From positions 1 through 35,618 of the forward strand of contig JAGTQI010000008.1 of NCBI GenBank assembly GCA_018396955.1: a DNA stretch of 35,618 nt, given 5' to 3'. The position numbers and the translations under genes are program-made. Below the pieces are notes generated by a model that did no database searches, was not told the DNA's origin, and saw nothing but the letters and a program-made list of their open reading frames with translations. The DNA comes from Candidatus Bathyarchaeota archaeon. GTDB lineage: Archaea > Thermoproteota > Bathyarchaeia > Bathyarchaeales > Bathycorpusculaceae. Positions 15,809-31,028 of the stretch are shown here, one piece after another. Position 1 is the first letter of the stretch. Each line of letters starts with the position of its first letter.

Positions 15809-17011
15809 TTACTCCATCTCAATGGTGGCGGGCGGTTTAGGCGTAACGTCGTAGTAAACCGCCGAAATATCGGGGCACGTTTCAATAATTTTATCTGCCG
15901 CCCTCTCTAAAGTTTTCCATGGTATCTCGGAGACCTGCGCTGTGAGGAAGTCCTTCGTTTGCACGGCCCTTATGCTTATGACGTAAGGCTTTTTCTCGGG
16001 CATTTCCTCGACAGCGTAGAGCACTCTCGTTATTGTTGGATTTTCGCTGGTTATCTTTGCTTGCAAAGCGACAAGCTTTGGTATATCCGTTTGGTAAGTT
16101 TTGCTCTCTGCTGTCTCAACCTTTATGCCGACAATTTTTCCATAGCGCCTCCCCCCGCCTTTCACACCAGTGGCTTTGTCCCTGAAAATCTTAACGTAAA
16201 CATTCCGGGATGGCACGTTTAAGAGGCGCGCAGCTGTTTCTTGCACATGTGACGCCGACGGCTCTGCTGGCGCCTCCTCATCATCTATTATTGCAGCGAA
16301 GTATTGGCTTGGCTTATGCTCAGCTAAGGCGCCCTCAACTATTGTCGTTGCCTTTTTCAGCGCCTCCAACTTCTCTGGACGGATTTCTCCCACAACCCGT
16401 ACCGACAAGCCTGGACCCGGAAAAGGTTGCCTTTCGGAAACTTCTGGTGGTAAACCAAGATGTCTGGCGACCATCCGCACTTGCTCCTTATAAAGCATCA
16501 ACAGTGGTTCTACGACTTTGAAACCGAATTTTTCCATGGGATTTATGCCTATCTGTTCCAAAACGTTATGCTGGGTTTTTACGCCGCCAACGGTTTCTAC
16601 AACATCAGCACGGATTGTTCCTTGCACTAGAAAGCGGCAATTTTCCTTTTTAGCTATCTCACTTAAGACTGTGTAAAAGGTTTCCCGAAACTTCTTCCGC
16701 TTTTCCTCAGCATCGCGTAAGCCTTTCATGGCGTTTAAGAAGCGTTCCTGAACATCAACTATTTTAACTGGCACTTTAAAAGGTTCTTTTGAAAGGATTT
16801 CAGCAACCCTTTCCGGTTCACCCTCCCGCATGAAGGCATCGTCCAAAATCACACAGACAAGGTTTTCGCCGACAGCCTTTCGGGTTAAAACAGCGCATGT
16901 TGTGCTGTCCACCCCGCCAGAAACAGCCACCAAAGCCCTTTCGCCGCCTATAGCCTTCCTTACCTCCATGATTTGTGCTTCAACAAATTTTTCGGGATTA
17001 AAGCTCTCCAT
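15809..17011 (-). CDS. guaAB: GMP synthase, ATP-pyrophosphatase subunit (GuaAB)
   Basis: 400 residues. It converts XMP to GMP with ATP and ammonia. The ATP loop is VAVSGGVDSTTCAV near residue 28, followed by the XMP-site segments FLVQGTIRADVVE and ERQPFPGPGLSVRVVGEIRP, and the C-terminal dimerisation domain ending DVTPKPPATIEME. It is longer than many archaeal subunits because of an insert of about 80 residues before that domain (HKPSQYFAAIIDDEEAPAEP ... GVKGGGRRYGKIVGIK). There is no glutaminase domain, so a separate GuaAA must supply ammonia; none is in the window. It follows the PUA-like gene by 20 bases, likely in one operon. Confidence 0.96.
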   Translation of the reverse strand: MESFNPEKFVEAQIMEVRKAIGGERALVAVSGGVDSTTCAVLTRKAVGENLVCVILDDAFMREGEPERVAEILSKEPFKVPVKIVDVQERFLNAMKGLRDAEEKRKKFRETFYTVLSEIAKKENCRFLVQGTIRADVVETVGGVKTQHNVLEQIGINPMEKFGFKVVEPLLMLYKEQVRMVARHLGLPPEVSERQPFPGPGLSVRVVGEIRPEKLEALKKATTIVEGALAEHKPSQYFAAIIDDEEAPAEPSASHVQETAARLLNVPSRNVYVKIFRDKATGVKGGGRRYGKIVGIKVETAESKTYQTDIPKLVALQAKITSENPTITRVLYAVEEMPEKKPYVISIRAVQTKDFLTAQVSEIPWKTLERAADKIIETCPDISAVYYDVTPKPPATIEME

Positions 17012-17031
17012 GTTTCGAGCTCCTTCGCCTT

Positions 17032-17475
17032 TTAGGTGATTAACTGATTTACTATTTCGCGGTTTATGTATTTACCGCCTCTCGGCACTTTTAGCACACC
17101 TAAAAGCTTCTTAAAAACCTCGAAAGACACGGGATTTTCAAGTTCACGGAAGTTTGTAAACCTTATGAATGTGGCTTTCTTTCGCCCTTCAAGAAAGGCT
17201 AAATATTCCTTGAAAGAGCTTAGGCAAGTTTCACCCCCATACTTTTCCCAAAGTTCCTTAAAGTCGCCTGCAACTCGCTCCAAGAAGTCGGCGATACCCT
17301 TAATCTGCATGGATGGACGCTTAACATAAAACAACAATTTTTCAGCCCTTTTTGGTCCAACAAGGTTTCTCCTAACGAAAGCGTGGGTTTTCTTGCCGCT
17401 TTTACACCTTTCACAAAGTCTACCCCACCATTTCTCGTCGGAAAGCAAAATGAACCCGTACTGCTCGTCTGTCAA
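17032..17475 (-). CDS. PUA/EVE-like domain protein (DUF365-type)
   Basis: 147 residues from TTG 17475. It has MTDEQYGFILLSDEKWWGRL, then KRAEKLLFYVKRPSMQIKGI and RKKATFIRFTNFRELENPVS, a pattern of strands that I associate with the archaeal DUF365 family and PUA-like (EVE/ASCH) folds, which bind modified bases in RNA or DNA. The assignment rests on memory of the family, not a search. It is upstream of guaAB on the same strand with a 20-base gap. Confidence 0.6.
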   Translation of the reverse strand: MTDEQYGFILLSDEKWWGRLCERCKSGKKTHAFVRRNLVGPKRAEKLLFYVKRPSMQIKGIADFLERVAGDFKELWEKYGGETCLSSFKEYLAFLEGRKKATFIRFTNFRELENPVSFEVFKKLLGVLKVPRGGKYINREIVNQLIT

Positions 17476-17712
17476 ACTGCAAACACCTGCACAAACTACG
17501 GTTATTTAGGTTTCAAAAATAATATTTTTGGTTAATCCACGCCTACCCCTGAACAAAATTTCACTTTTAAACATTAAAAGCCGCAAAGAAAGTAGCCAAG
17601 TTTGAGATAGACTTTTAAAAACAGCATTTCCCGTAGGCTTGAAAACGTGTGAAAAAGCCCTTTCCTCGGCTGTTAAAGTTTTTTAACAATCCTGCATCAT
17701 TGTCTCCTGCAA

Positions 17713-18075
17713 ATGGGGGAGATTCCTCTGAAGCCAGAAGATGCAAAAGCTCTCACCACAGCGTTAAACGAGTTAAATGATAGTTATGCGGACTTTCTCC
17801 AGTCCCTAAGCTGCACCGTGAGGGAGGTGAAGGCTTCCAAAAAGCTTTGGAAAAACGGCAACAAGCCATGGCTTTTTAAGCTGGGCTTAGCCTTAATAGT
17901 TTTTCCAGAACCCGTCCTAAGCGATGTTTTAGGAAGCCTCCTAATAGCCGCTGGAACCGTCCAAGAGGGAATCCGCCGCAGAGCCATATATGTAGAAGAC
18001 ATACCCAAAACATTTCAAAGTGTAATGAGGGAGCTTAGGGCTTCGGAGGATCGCATAATTGGTAGGCTTGTTTAA
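17713..18075 (+). CDS. Small putative membrane protein
   Basis: 120 residues from ATG 17713. The first 50 residues are a polar helix (DAKALTTALNELNDSYADFL). Two short hydrophobic segments follow (WLFKLGLALIVFPEPVLSDV and GSLLIAAGTVQ), then a basic, helical tail. This suggests a hairpin in the membrane with both ends in the cytoplasm. No family recognised. The RHH gene with its palindrome starts just downstream and could be regulated separately. Confidence 0.6.
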   Translation: MGEIPLKPEDAKALTTALNELNDSYADFLQSLSCTVREVKASKKLWKNGNKPWLFKLGLALIVFPEPVLSDVLGSLLIAAGTVQEGIRRRAIYVEDIPKTFQSVMRELRASEDRIIGRLV

Positions 18076-18078
18076 ATC

Positions 18079-18086
18079 TTATATTT
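18079..18086 (+). promoter_or_regulatory. TATA box of the RHH gene
   Basis: TTATATTT 3 bases downstream of the preceding stop codon. Predicted start of transcription near 18107, at the end of the palindrome, and before the gaggtgg ribosome-binding site at 18114-18120. Confidence 0.5.
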
Positions 18087-18090
18087 AGAG

Positions 18091-18110
18091 CATGTTATAA
18101 ACATAACATG
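18091..18110. promoter_or_regulatory. Perfect palindrome, candidate RHH operator
   Basis: CATGTTAT-AAAC-ATAACATG: two perfect 8-base arms around a 4-base spacer. It lies between the TATA box and the ribosome-binding site of the RHH gene, exactly where a repressor would block transcription. RHH dimers bind such palindromes, so autoregulation is the natural reading. Confidence 0.7.
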
Positions 18111-18126
18111 TTTGAGGTGGAGAAGC

Positions 18127-18279
18127 GTGAAACTCGTAACTGTGCTGTTACCTGAAGCCTATTTGGAGGGGCTGGACGAGCTTGTAAGGGCGAACATGTA
18201 CCCAAGTAGAAGTGCAGCTATAAGGTCGGCTGTAAGAGACCTTCTCAAAAAGGAGCTTTGGGAAAGGAAGGAGAGATAA
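18127..18279 (+). CDS. Small ribbon-helix-helix (CopG-type) transcription factor
   Basis: 50 residues, missing from the ORF track because it is short. It starts at GTG 18127 with gaggtgg upstream. It reads KLVTVLLPEAYLEGLDELV (the DNA-contacting beta strand and first helix), then MYPSRSAAIRSAVRDLLKKE, the second helix with the typical Ser-Arg-Ser N-cap of this fold. Such proteins act as dimers and bind palindromes; one sits in its own promoter. Its nearest neighbour downstream, pyrF, is convergent, so other targets are unknown. There is no metal-binding ACT domain as in NikR. Confidence 0.88.
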   Translation: MKLVTVLLPEAYLEGLDELVRANMYPSRSAAIRSAVRDLLKKELWERKER

Positions 18280-18293
18280 AACACAATCCCTTT

Positions 18294-19064
18294 TCATTTA
18301 ACGCTTAAAGCGATGTCCCTAATCCTTTTTGCAGTTTCAGCCGGATTTTCAGAAAGGGTTATCGCCCGCCCAACAATAAGGTAAGAGGCACCAGCCTTTA
18401 AGGCGGATTCTATTTCCCCTCCTTGAACGCCCACACCCGGCGAATAAATCGGGATTTTCCCAGCCAGAACATTGTACACCTCTTTTATTTTTTCTGGGTA
18501 TGTGGCGCCAACAACAACGCCATCCGCGCCCCATTCTAGAGCTTTTCGGGCAAAAACGATGTATTGAGGTGTTCTGTGCCCGCTTTTTGCGTCCACCACT
18601 ATCTGGCCGTAGCCCTCACCAGCACCTTTATGGCTCATGTAGGCGAGGAGAATAACACCTTTATTCCGATTTTTCGCAGCTTCGAAGACCGGTTTTAGGC
18701 CTTCTTCCCATCCGACAAAGGGATTAGCTATTAGAGCGTCAAAACCTGCCTCATAGTAGTACTCAGCTATTACGTGGTTCGTTGAGCCTATGTCGTTTAC
18801 CTTGCAATCCATTATCGTGGGAAGCTCTTTCTCATGCGCTTTTTCCAAGAGTTTTTGGACGCCGTTGAAGATTCCCAGCGGAAGAATCAAGTGGTGGTTA
18901 AACTTTACAGCGCAGACATAGGGATTGACAATGTCAATTATGTTCTCCGCCCTTTTATAGAGAGTTTGACGGTTTTCTGGCTTTTCGTAGGGGAAGTCTA
19001 AAGCCAAAACAATGTTTGACTCTCTTTCTTCAGCGGCTTCAGCTACTCTTTCTCGGAAGGACAA
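18294..19064 (-). CDS. pyrF: Orotidine 5'-phosphate decarboxylase
   Basis: 256 residues from TTG 19064. It catalyses the last step to UMP. The catalytic DxKxxD array is visible in MDCKVNDIGSTN near residue 88, and the phosphate-binding ends in IPIYSPGVGVQGG and YLIVGRAIT. The barrel strand LALDFPYEK starts the fold. It follows the B3/4 gene with an 18-base gap and is likely co-transcribed, an odd partner for pyrimidine synthesis. It is convergent with the RHH gene. Confidence 0.95.
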   Translation of the reverse strand: MSFRERVAEAAEERESNIVLALDFPYEKPENRQTLYKRAENIIDIVNPYVCAVKFNHHLILPLGIFNGVQKLLEKAHEKELPTIMDCKVNDIGSTNHVIAEYYYEAGFDALIANPFVGWEEGLKPVFEAAKNRNKGVILLAYMSHKGAGEGYGQIVVDAKSGHRTPQYIVFARKALEWGADGVVVGATYPEKIKEVYNVLAGKIPIYSPGVGVQGGEIESALKAGASYLIVGRAITLSENPAETAKRIRDIALSVK

Positions 19065-28670: not shown

Positions 28671-29306
28671 TTGAGTGAAAATAAGGCGCATAAAACTAGC
28701 AGTGGCGAAAAACAGATGGCTGAAATTGGTTTAAGGTCAAGAATGCTGGTTAGAGACGTCATGAGCAGCCCAGTGATAACTGTGGAGGAAAACGCCACAG
28801 CAAACCGCGTTGCAGAGCTCATGGACAAACATGGACTGGGATGCATAATAGTTACTAGCAAGGAAGGAAAACCCATAGGGATTATAACTGAAAGAGACTT
28901 GGTAACAAGGGTTCTTGCAAAAAACGTTAAACCCGACACCTTAAAGGCAAAAGACGTTATGACAACCCCCTTAATAACAATAGAGCCAGATGAAACAATA
29001 AGTGAAGCCGCCCGGAAAATGAGCAGACTAAACATTAGAAGGTTGGGCGTAGTCTACAAGGGACAACTCATCGGAATCCTCTCCAGCAAGGACATATTGG
29101 CAGTGATGCCAGAACTCATCGAAACGATACAGGAGAGAGCCCTCATAGAGGGAGAAAGCCTAACCCAAACAACCATAACAGAAGAGGAGGAAGAGTCTTC
29201 TTTGGCTGGATACTGCGACCGCTGCGGCGGATGGTCGGACAACCTTATAGAGGTGGATGGAGAATTCCTCTGCGAAGACTGCAGAGCCGAATTGGAAACT
29301 GAATGA
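28671..29306 (+). CDS. Two-CBS protein with C-terminal zinc ribbon
   Basis: 211 residues from TTG 28671; ATG 28716 is an alternative because the TATA-like ttttaaat at 28645 predicts transcription near 28674. Two CBS repeats follow (VRDVMSSPVITVEENATANR, AKDVMTTPLITIEPDETISE). After an acidic linker comes a zinc ribbon (YCDRCGGWSDN ... FLCEDCRAE). CBS pairs bind adenine nucleotides and regulate partners. The ribbon suggests binding to nucleic acid or protein. First gene of a four-gene operon; the next gene is 15 bases away. Confidence 0.92.
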   Translation: MSENKAHKTSSGEKQMAEIGLRSRMLVRDVMSSPVITVEENATANRVAELMDKHGLGCIIVTSKEGKPIGIITERDLVTRVLAKNVKPDTLKAKDVMTTPLITIEPDETISEAARKMSRLNIRRLGVVYKGQLIGILSSKDILAVMPELIETIQERALIEGESLTQTTITEEEEESSLAGYCDRCGGWSDNLIEVDGEFLCEDCRAELETE

Positions 29307-29321
29307 AAAAGGGGAGATTTT

Positions 29322-30107
29322 TTGCGTGTCAAAGAAGTGTTAAACGAAAGGCATCCATTCATTTATGATGATGAGCTTGCAACAAAGGCCCGCGCCCTCA
29401 TCCGTGACTTCTCCCTAAGAATACTGCCCGTTACAAACCGTGAAAGAAAACTTTTGGGGATAGTCTCCCGCGGCGCAGTTATGACCATATCCTCATCCGT
29501 TTCGCCAATAAAAGTGAAGGGCATAATGACAAACCCAAAGCATGTTGCCACAATAGAAGATGATGCTTTCCAAACGGTTAAGGCGATGCTGCGCGTAGAT
29601 GAATGGTGTACACCAGTTGTAAACAACCGGACAGAAAACCTGTTAAAAGGAGTTTTAGGCTTAGAAAACTTCATAGAAAACATAATAAAAACAAGCCCTG
29701 AAAAACTTGCAAAACCGGTTTCAGAAATAATGTCAACAAACCTTATAACGTGCTCTCCAGGCGACGAGATAGACGATGTCTGGCGCCTAATGCAAAACAA
29801 ATCTTTTGCTGGACTCCCCGTCGTAGCCAAAAACAGGCTTGTGGGCATTGTAACCCAAAAAGACCTTCTCGAAAGCGGAGCGCTTATGCCAACATTCGAG
29901 TCACACAAGGGAAGATTCAAAGCTTCAACGAAAATTTCAGCAGTTATAAAGACAAACGTGATAACTGTTCAGCCATCGGTAAAGGCGATAAGGGTTGCAA
30001 AAGTGATGGTTTCAAAGGATATTGGGCGAGTTCCAGTGGTGGACAAGGACGGAAGGCTAATAGGCATAGTGGACCGAGAAGACATAGCAAGGTTAATAAT
30101 CAAATGA
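29322..30107 (+). CDS. Four-CBS protein
   Basis: 261 residues, start TTG 29322 with ggggag upstream. Four CBS repeats are visible, opening MRVKEVLNERHPFIYDDELA, then KVKGIMTNPKHVATIEDDA, VSEIMSTNLITCSPGDEIDD and ISAVIKTNVITVQPSVKAIR. Each ends with the G-I/L-V-x-R/K-x-D/E type of strand-helix. No catalytic domain is fused, so it acts as a nucleotide-responsive partner. It follows the zinc-ribbon CBS gene by 15 bases and precedes another four-CBS gene by 12 bases. Confidence 0.93.
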   Translation: MRVKEVLNERHPFIYDDELATKARALIRDFSLRILPVTNRERKLLGIVSRGAVMTISSSVSPIKVKGIMTNPKHVATIEDDAFQTVKAMLRVDEWCTPVVNNRTENLLKGVLGLENFIENIIKTSPEKLAKPVSEIMSTNLITCSPGDEIDDVWRLMQNKSFAGLPVVAKNRLVGIVTQKDLLESGALMPTFESHKGRFKASTKISAVIKTNVITVQPSVKAIRVAKVMVSKDIGRVPVVDKDGRLIGIVDREDIARLIIK

Positions 30108-30119
30108 GAAGGGCTGAAA

Positions 30120-31028
30120 ATGAGTAGAGAAACTTTTAGGAGAACGCTGAGAGGCAAAGGACCGGTCTCATTGAAGGGTTCAGCAGCTAAAAAATGTGAA
30201 GGCGACGTGATGCACATAGCAAAAAGTCCGGTCATAACAATGGCTCCAACAACACCTATATATGATGCAATAAAAATAATGGCAAAAGAAGGATTCCGCA
30301 GAATCCCTATTGCTGATCCGGGCACAAAAACCTTGACTGGCATAGTAACCGCCACGGACATAGTTGACTATCTAGGAGGAGGCAAAAAATTCGAAATAGT
30401 CCAACAGAAGTTTTCAGGAAACATCTTCAAAGCCATAAACGAACCCATAAAACTCATAATGAACCAGAAAATTTTCACAGTAAAAATCACAGCGGATATA
30501 AGCGAGGCAATCCAGCTTATGAAGGAGGGGAATGTTGGCGGCTTACCAGTTGTAGACGATGGAAACCGTGTAAGGGCAATAATTACTGAAAGGGATGTAG
30601 CCAGCATATTCGCAGACAGAATAAGCGGAATAAAAGTTTCACAGCTAATGACTGAAAAAGTGATAACAGCACCGCCAAAAACAACAATCTTCGAGGCGGA
30701 GAAAACTATGATTGGACAAGGCTTCAGAAGGCTCCCAATAGTTTCAGACGGCAAAGTCGTGGGCATAATAACATCCATGGACATAATCCGCTTCTTCGGC
30801 TCGAAGATGGTCTTTAAACATCTAAAATCAGGAACAATAACGCAGGTTCTGAACACTCCAGTCCTTGAAATAGCAACAAGAGATGTTGTAACAATTGCAC
30901 CGGATGCGGATGTTGGACAAGCAGCAAAAATCATGAGGGAGAAGAACTTCGGCGCATTACCGGTCGTCCAAAATGAAAGACTTGTTGGCATAATAACCGA
31001 AAGGGACTTCTTTAAAATAATCGAGTAA
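30120..31028 (+). CDS. Four-CBS protein with basic N-terminus
   Basis: 302 residues from ATG 30120. The first 30 are basic and Ser/Arg-rich (SRETFRRTLRGKGPVSLKGS), possibly for nucleic acid or partner binding. Four CBS repeats follow: VMHIAKSPVITMAPTTPIYD, IMNQKIFTVKITADISEAIQ, LMTEKVITAPPKTTIFEAEK and VLEIATRDVVTIAPDADVGQ. It is the third CBS gene in a row, so the operon has ten CBS repeats. The Trm5 gene follows 17 bases later. Confidence 0.93.
   Translation: MSRETFRRTLRGKGPVSLKGSAAKKCEGDVMHIAKSPVITMAPTTPIYDAIKIMAKEGFRRIPIADPGTKTLTGIVTATDIVDYLGGGKKFEIVQQKFSGNIFKAINEPIKLIMNQKIFTVKITADISEAIQLMKEGNVGGLPVVDDGNRVRAIITERDVASIFADRISGIKVSQLMTEKVITAPPKTTIFEAEKTMIGQGFRRLPIVSDGKVVGIITSMDIIRFFGSKMVFKHLKSGTITQVLNTPVLEIATRDVVTIAPDADVGQAAKIMREKNFGALPVVQNERLVGIITERDFFKIIE

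Follow-up and report, generated by a model that had tools for sequence, protein, structure and literature searches.

Small ribbon-helix-helix (RHH) proteins of the Arc/CopG/NikR/ParD class repress their own promoters through symmetric half-sites. In haloarchaea, the cdrS gene is positioned directly upstream of ftsZ (PMC7439475, PMC8406309), and DNA binding by the RHH regulator CdrL is confined to the cdrS-ftsZ2 promoter (PMC7439475). Archaeal repressors usually act at or downstream of the promoter (PMC8406309). Here, we describe a bathyarchaeal RHH gene that carries a perfect palindrome in its own promoter, and we consider it probable that the encoded protein negatively autoregulates its gene. 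The DNA analysed (35,618 nt, hereafter the window) is contig 49 of a 1.37-Mb genome that is 91% complete; its named relatives are Candidatus Bathyarchaeota.

The RHH gene and the layout of its promoter

The gene is located on the + strand at 18127..18279, from a GTG start codon at 18127 to a TAA stop codon at 18277-18279, and encodes a protein of 50 residues. As the preliminary description of this DNA had pointed out, the gene is missed by the mechanical ORF list, in which the region is represented only by a 55-aa ORF with a TTG start that falls below the 60-aa cut. The assignment to the RHH proteins, made in the same description, was borne out by a match to the Pfam profile RHH_1 (PF01402) with an E-value of 3.9e-9 and a score of 36.6 bits, above the curated cut-off of 20.5. 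The AlphaFold model (pLDDT 90) has an extended N-terminus followed by helices at residues 10-21 and 28-48; together with Foldseek, this gives the strand-helix-helix fold of PF01402, the strand being only extended in the monomer model. The best PDB matches found by Foldseek were RHH domains (ParD and NikR; TM 0.67-0.91), with E-values of only 0.04 or above, which are weak because the protein is so short.

Upstream of the gene, the + strand carries the AAA of a BRE-like element at 18074..18076, where columns -6 to -4 from the TATA box are A-rich and conserved in 35 promoters, and a near-invariant TATA box, TATATTT, at 18080..18086. The candidate operator, CATGTTAT-AAAC-ATAACATG, occupies 18091..18110 and is an exact 8-4-8 palindrome. 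It is followed on the + strand by the ribosome-binding site GAGGTGGAG at 18114..18122, which is recognizable from its sequence and falls in a conserved block of purine-rich columns; the palindrome does lie between TATA box and ribosome-binding site, as had been proposed. Judging by the usual TATA-to-start distance, transcription would begin at approximately 18108-18111. The palindrome would thus span approximately -20 to +1, with most of it outside the transcript.

The order of genes in this region (window 15809-19064) is conserved across the order, and comprises the guaA PP subunit, a 147-aa gene, a 120-aa gene, the RHH gene and a convergent pyrF. A pyrF gene was found near 43 of the approximately 50 RHH gene copies. 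The 120-aa neighbour includes a hydrophobic stretch and matched no Pfam family over the cut-off. We rejected a type II antitoxin function of the ParD kind, as no toxin gene adjoins the RHH gene, its conserved neighbours on the chromosome being the guaA subunit, p147, the 120-aa gene and pyrF. Elsewhere in the window, at 28671-31028 on the + strand, three consecutive genes resembling CBS-domain proteins are arranged in tandem.

Conservation of the palindrome with the gene

Perfect 8-bp inverted repeats with spacers of 2-8 are no more than ordinary in this DNA, with seven in the window compared to a mean of 6.0 in shuffles. The palindrome is consequently not remarkable on its own, and the case for its function rests on comparative evidence. 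A repeat of the same kind fell inside the 67-bp promoter in 13 of 2000 shuffles, and the exact pair of half-sites is unique in the 1.37-Mb genome, where the closest other site has two mismatches.

Most of 60 relatives drawn from the family and the order encode the RHH protein with 80-100% identity. We aligned 35 promoters on the TATA box; most members of the family were represented, together with a small number from neighbouring families in the order. In this alignment, the TATA box and the A-rich block upstream of it were near-invariant, and both arms of the palindrome were conserved, at a constant distance from the TATA box (CAT follows TATA by 11 bases in most promoters). Further 5', the DNA was scrambled, at approximately 0.1-0.2 bit per column. 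Mere relatedness or synteny was rejected as the cause of this conservation: the synteny of pyrF and the guaA subunit is kept, yet the DNA 5' of the TATA box is nearly information-free. A symmetric site is, in short, conserved with the gene in the gene's own promoter, as is expected of an autoregulated RHH repressor.

A blind search for the palindrome in 61 genomes of the family returned ten exact matches in ten genomes, all ten of them before the RHH gene, whilst a reversed-pattern control gave few matches per genome. Genomes that had played no part in deriving the motif gave six matches with no or one mismatch, and five of these preceded the orthologue. The palindrome score reached p < 0.05 in 14/15 promoters of copies with at least 93% identity and in 27/38 promoters of copies with 85-93% identity; these p-values are conservative, since the background, made up of random stretches from the same loci, itself contains true sites. 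The palindrome was shifted or decayed in several copies within the family, and no palindrome was found before the gene in L010/L136, a close orthologue with 96% identity. Conservation beside orthologues, the check suggested by the preliminary description, thus holds for the family and for part of the order. A search upstream of 20 homologues, taken from other classes and from elsewhere in the phylum, did not find the palindrome, which was also absent before phylum homologues with 62-73% identity and before the Asgard homologues. On these comparisons, the candidate operator is specific to this bathyarchaeal lineage. Two of the Asgard homologues (L203 and L204, from Lokiarchaeota and Sigynarchaeota) have ACACGCGTG repeats 5' of the gene, possibly another operator.

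A search of the genome with the palindrome led back to the promoter of the RHH gene. Within the window, the operator scored 29 bits, compared to 4 for the runner-up. When 41 genomes were searched with the profile, promoters of the RHH gene were the top matches, the remainder being weak and scattered. The further targets that had been expected from such a search did not appear as strong sites; only degenerate versions were detected, at cdrS-ftsZ promoters. We inspected 20 candidate other sites, most of which lay inside coding sequence (PurL, CysRS and others), and in G017 and G033 three or four candidates fell in a short GC-rich repeated element. The few intergenic candidates, such as the L272 site 21 bp ahead of a pyrK-like gene, were weak and non-recurrent. 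It should be noted that a short repeat containing GCATRTTATGTTCCTATTATRTTTTTGCCGATATCGCGCGC-like sequence, found in G017 and G033 (L267, L268, L273 and L277) in several intergenic or spurious-ORF places, mimics the operator half-site. Taken at the level of sequence, the palindrome appears to be essentially a self-only operator.

The ftsZ-linked paralogue and possible alternative readers of the site

A paralogue with 50-60% identity to the RHH protein is encoded directly upstream of ftsZ in the same lineage, the position of haloarchaeal cdrS, and represents the true cdrS. In a tree of 53 columns, poorly resolved inside, a split with support of 95/97 separated the ftsZ-linked clade from a clade of the RHH protein and its homologues across the phylum. 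At beta-strand position 7, the stand-alone RHH protein has Leu where its ftsZ-linked paralogue has Tyr. The incomplete genome of the window (G000) yielded no ftsZ and no ftsZ-linked cdrS, and both are present in both sister genomes; an assembly gap is the most likely explanation.

The cdrS-ftsZ promoters contain a degenerate 8-4-8 site, CATATTTA-N4-ATAAYATG, approximately -73 from the start codon. The mean best score of this site was 5.65, compared to -5.7 in shuffles, of which the highest mean was -2.96. The same promoters carry CATATTT boxes 11 bp apart, the second and third of which form the degenerate site, so that one CATATTT box is additional to it. Three boxes of approximately CATATTTAAAA with 11-bp spacing are strongly conserved before the ftsZ-linked paralogue (L055-L074; for example L072, G018:C18:55660-55692), and probably serve CdrS itself as an operator or activator site. 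When the genome of the window was searched with the cdrS-promoter profile, the only match was the promoter of the RHH gene (E 0.036).

These observations bear on the possibility that the operator belongs to a CdrS circuit, in which the RHH protein, the ftsZ-linked CdrS or both would bind both promoters, and the gene would form part of cell-division control, much as cdrS-ftsZ2 is controlled by CdrL in haloarchaea. We regard such sharing as a tentative proposal, compatible with autorepression. It draws on the position of the paralogue directly before ftsZ, the degenerate site in the cdrS-ftsZ promoters, that sole match of the cdrS-promoter profile and the resemblance of the RHH protein to the CdrS family; however, the cross-matches between the promoters are weak, Leu in place of Tyr at position 7 suggests diverged specificity, and the likeness may reflect one ancestral promoter or self-regulation by CdrS. 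Shared ancestry of both promoters explains the similarity of the sites equally well. Cross-regulation of cell division by the stand-alone RHH protein is a possibility, and a two-protein RHH circuit in Bathyarchaeota is put forward as a rather doubtful extension: the near-invariant, stand-alone sister of CdrS, held in check via its own dedicated operator, would also read the weak 8-4-8 site and CATATTT box in the cdrS-ftsZ promoter and so set the expression of FtsZ. If used, the weak cdrS-ftsZ site would provide a handle on the control of cell division in Bathyarchaeota.

Conservation beside a gene reveals a site and not its reader, and the palindrome might be bound by another transcription factor. 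We judge this improbable, given that the site is essentially confined to the RHH promoter genome-wide, as is typical of self-regulation, and that the geometry of the half-sites suits paired RHH dimers. A role in RNA, as a leader hairpin or as a terminator of the upstream gene, might be read from the folding of the strand, which is better than in shuffles (z -2.4), but is very unlikely: no T run follows the palindrome, the predicted transcription start leaves most of the repeat outside the transcript, and the arms do not covary, with 88.0% paired cells compared to 89.1% in shuffles. The lack of covariation led us to reject an RNA hairpin, and favours a DNA operator with separate half-site contacts over an RNA stem. 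Equally frequent as such repeats are in the window and in shuffles, a chance inverted repeat is scarcely credible when dozens of genomes keep the site at a fixed spacing amid scrambled flanks.

Probable autorepression and comparison with described regulators

The layout of gene and palindrome fits a self-repressing module, and autorepression by the stand-alone CdrS-like RHH protein is the reading we prefer. We infer that two RHH dimers would bind next to each other on the pair of CATGTTAT half-sites, whose centres are 12 bp apart, immediately 3' of the TATA box and covering the transcription start. Once abundant, the protein would block the pre-initiation complex or the loading of the polymerase. 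The 50-residue protein is much more conserved than autorepression as its sole task predicts, which suggests a further function. The palindrome represents a concrete, testable candidate operator for a near-invariant small regulator of a major uncultured archaeal lineage.

Amongst curated families, the best match of the RHH protein was CdrS (E 1.1e-9, residues 1-47), ahead of a weaker match to NikR. Its score against the CdrS equivalog model, which was made for haloarchaea, was 38.1 bits, below the cut-off of 100. Like CdrS, the bathyarchaeal protein is a short one-domain RHH protein, and its promoter site is symmetric, as is the DNA motif reported for CdrS. Unlike cdrS, its gene is located between the 120-aa gene and pyrF and not directly upstream of ftsZ; and whereas the 18 sites of Haloferax CdrS are mostly located upstream of promoters, the bathyarchaeal protein has one candidate site, downstream of the TATA box. 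CdrL of haloarchaea resembles it in having a single reproducible target, but this target is cdrS-ftsZ2, and the protein has a zinc-ribbon domain in addition; CdrL is not known to target itself, whereas the bathyarchaeal site is in the gene's own promoter. The cell-cycle repressor aCcr1 of the Sulfolobales, likewise a small archaeal RHH protein, was compared by family model and matched weakly (E 0.0022), with 17.9 bits against an equivalog cut-off of 60. With the Arc/CopG/NikR/ParD class the bathyarchaeal protein has its fold in common, but it is without a metal domain, toxin partner or toxin-binding tail. We propose, on family placement and phylogeny, the name stand-alone CdrS-like RHH protein for this sister of CdrS, rather than CdrS. 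The analysis also tells this stand-alone RHH regulator apart from the ftsZ-linked CdrS, two proteins that family models could confuse.
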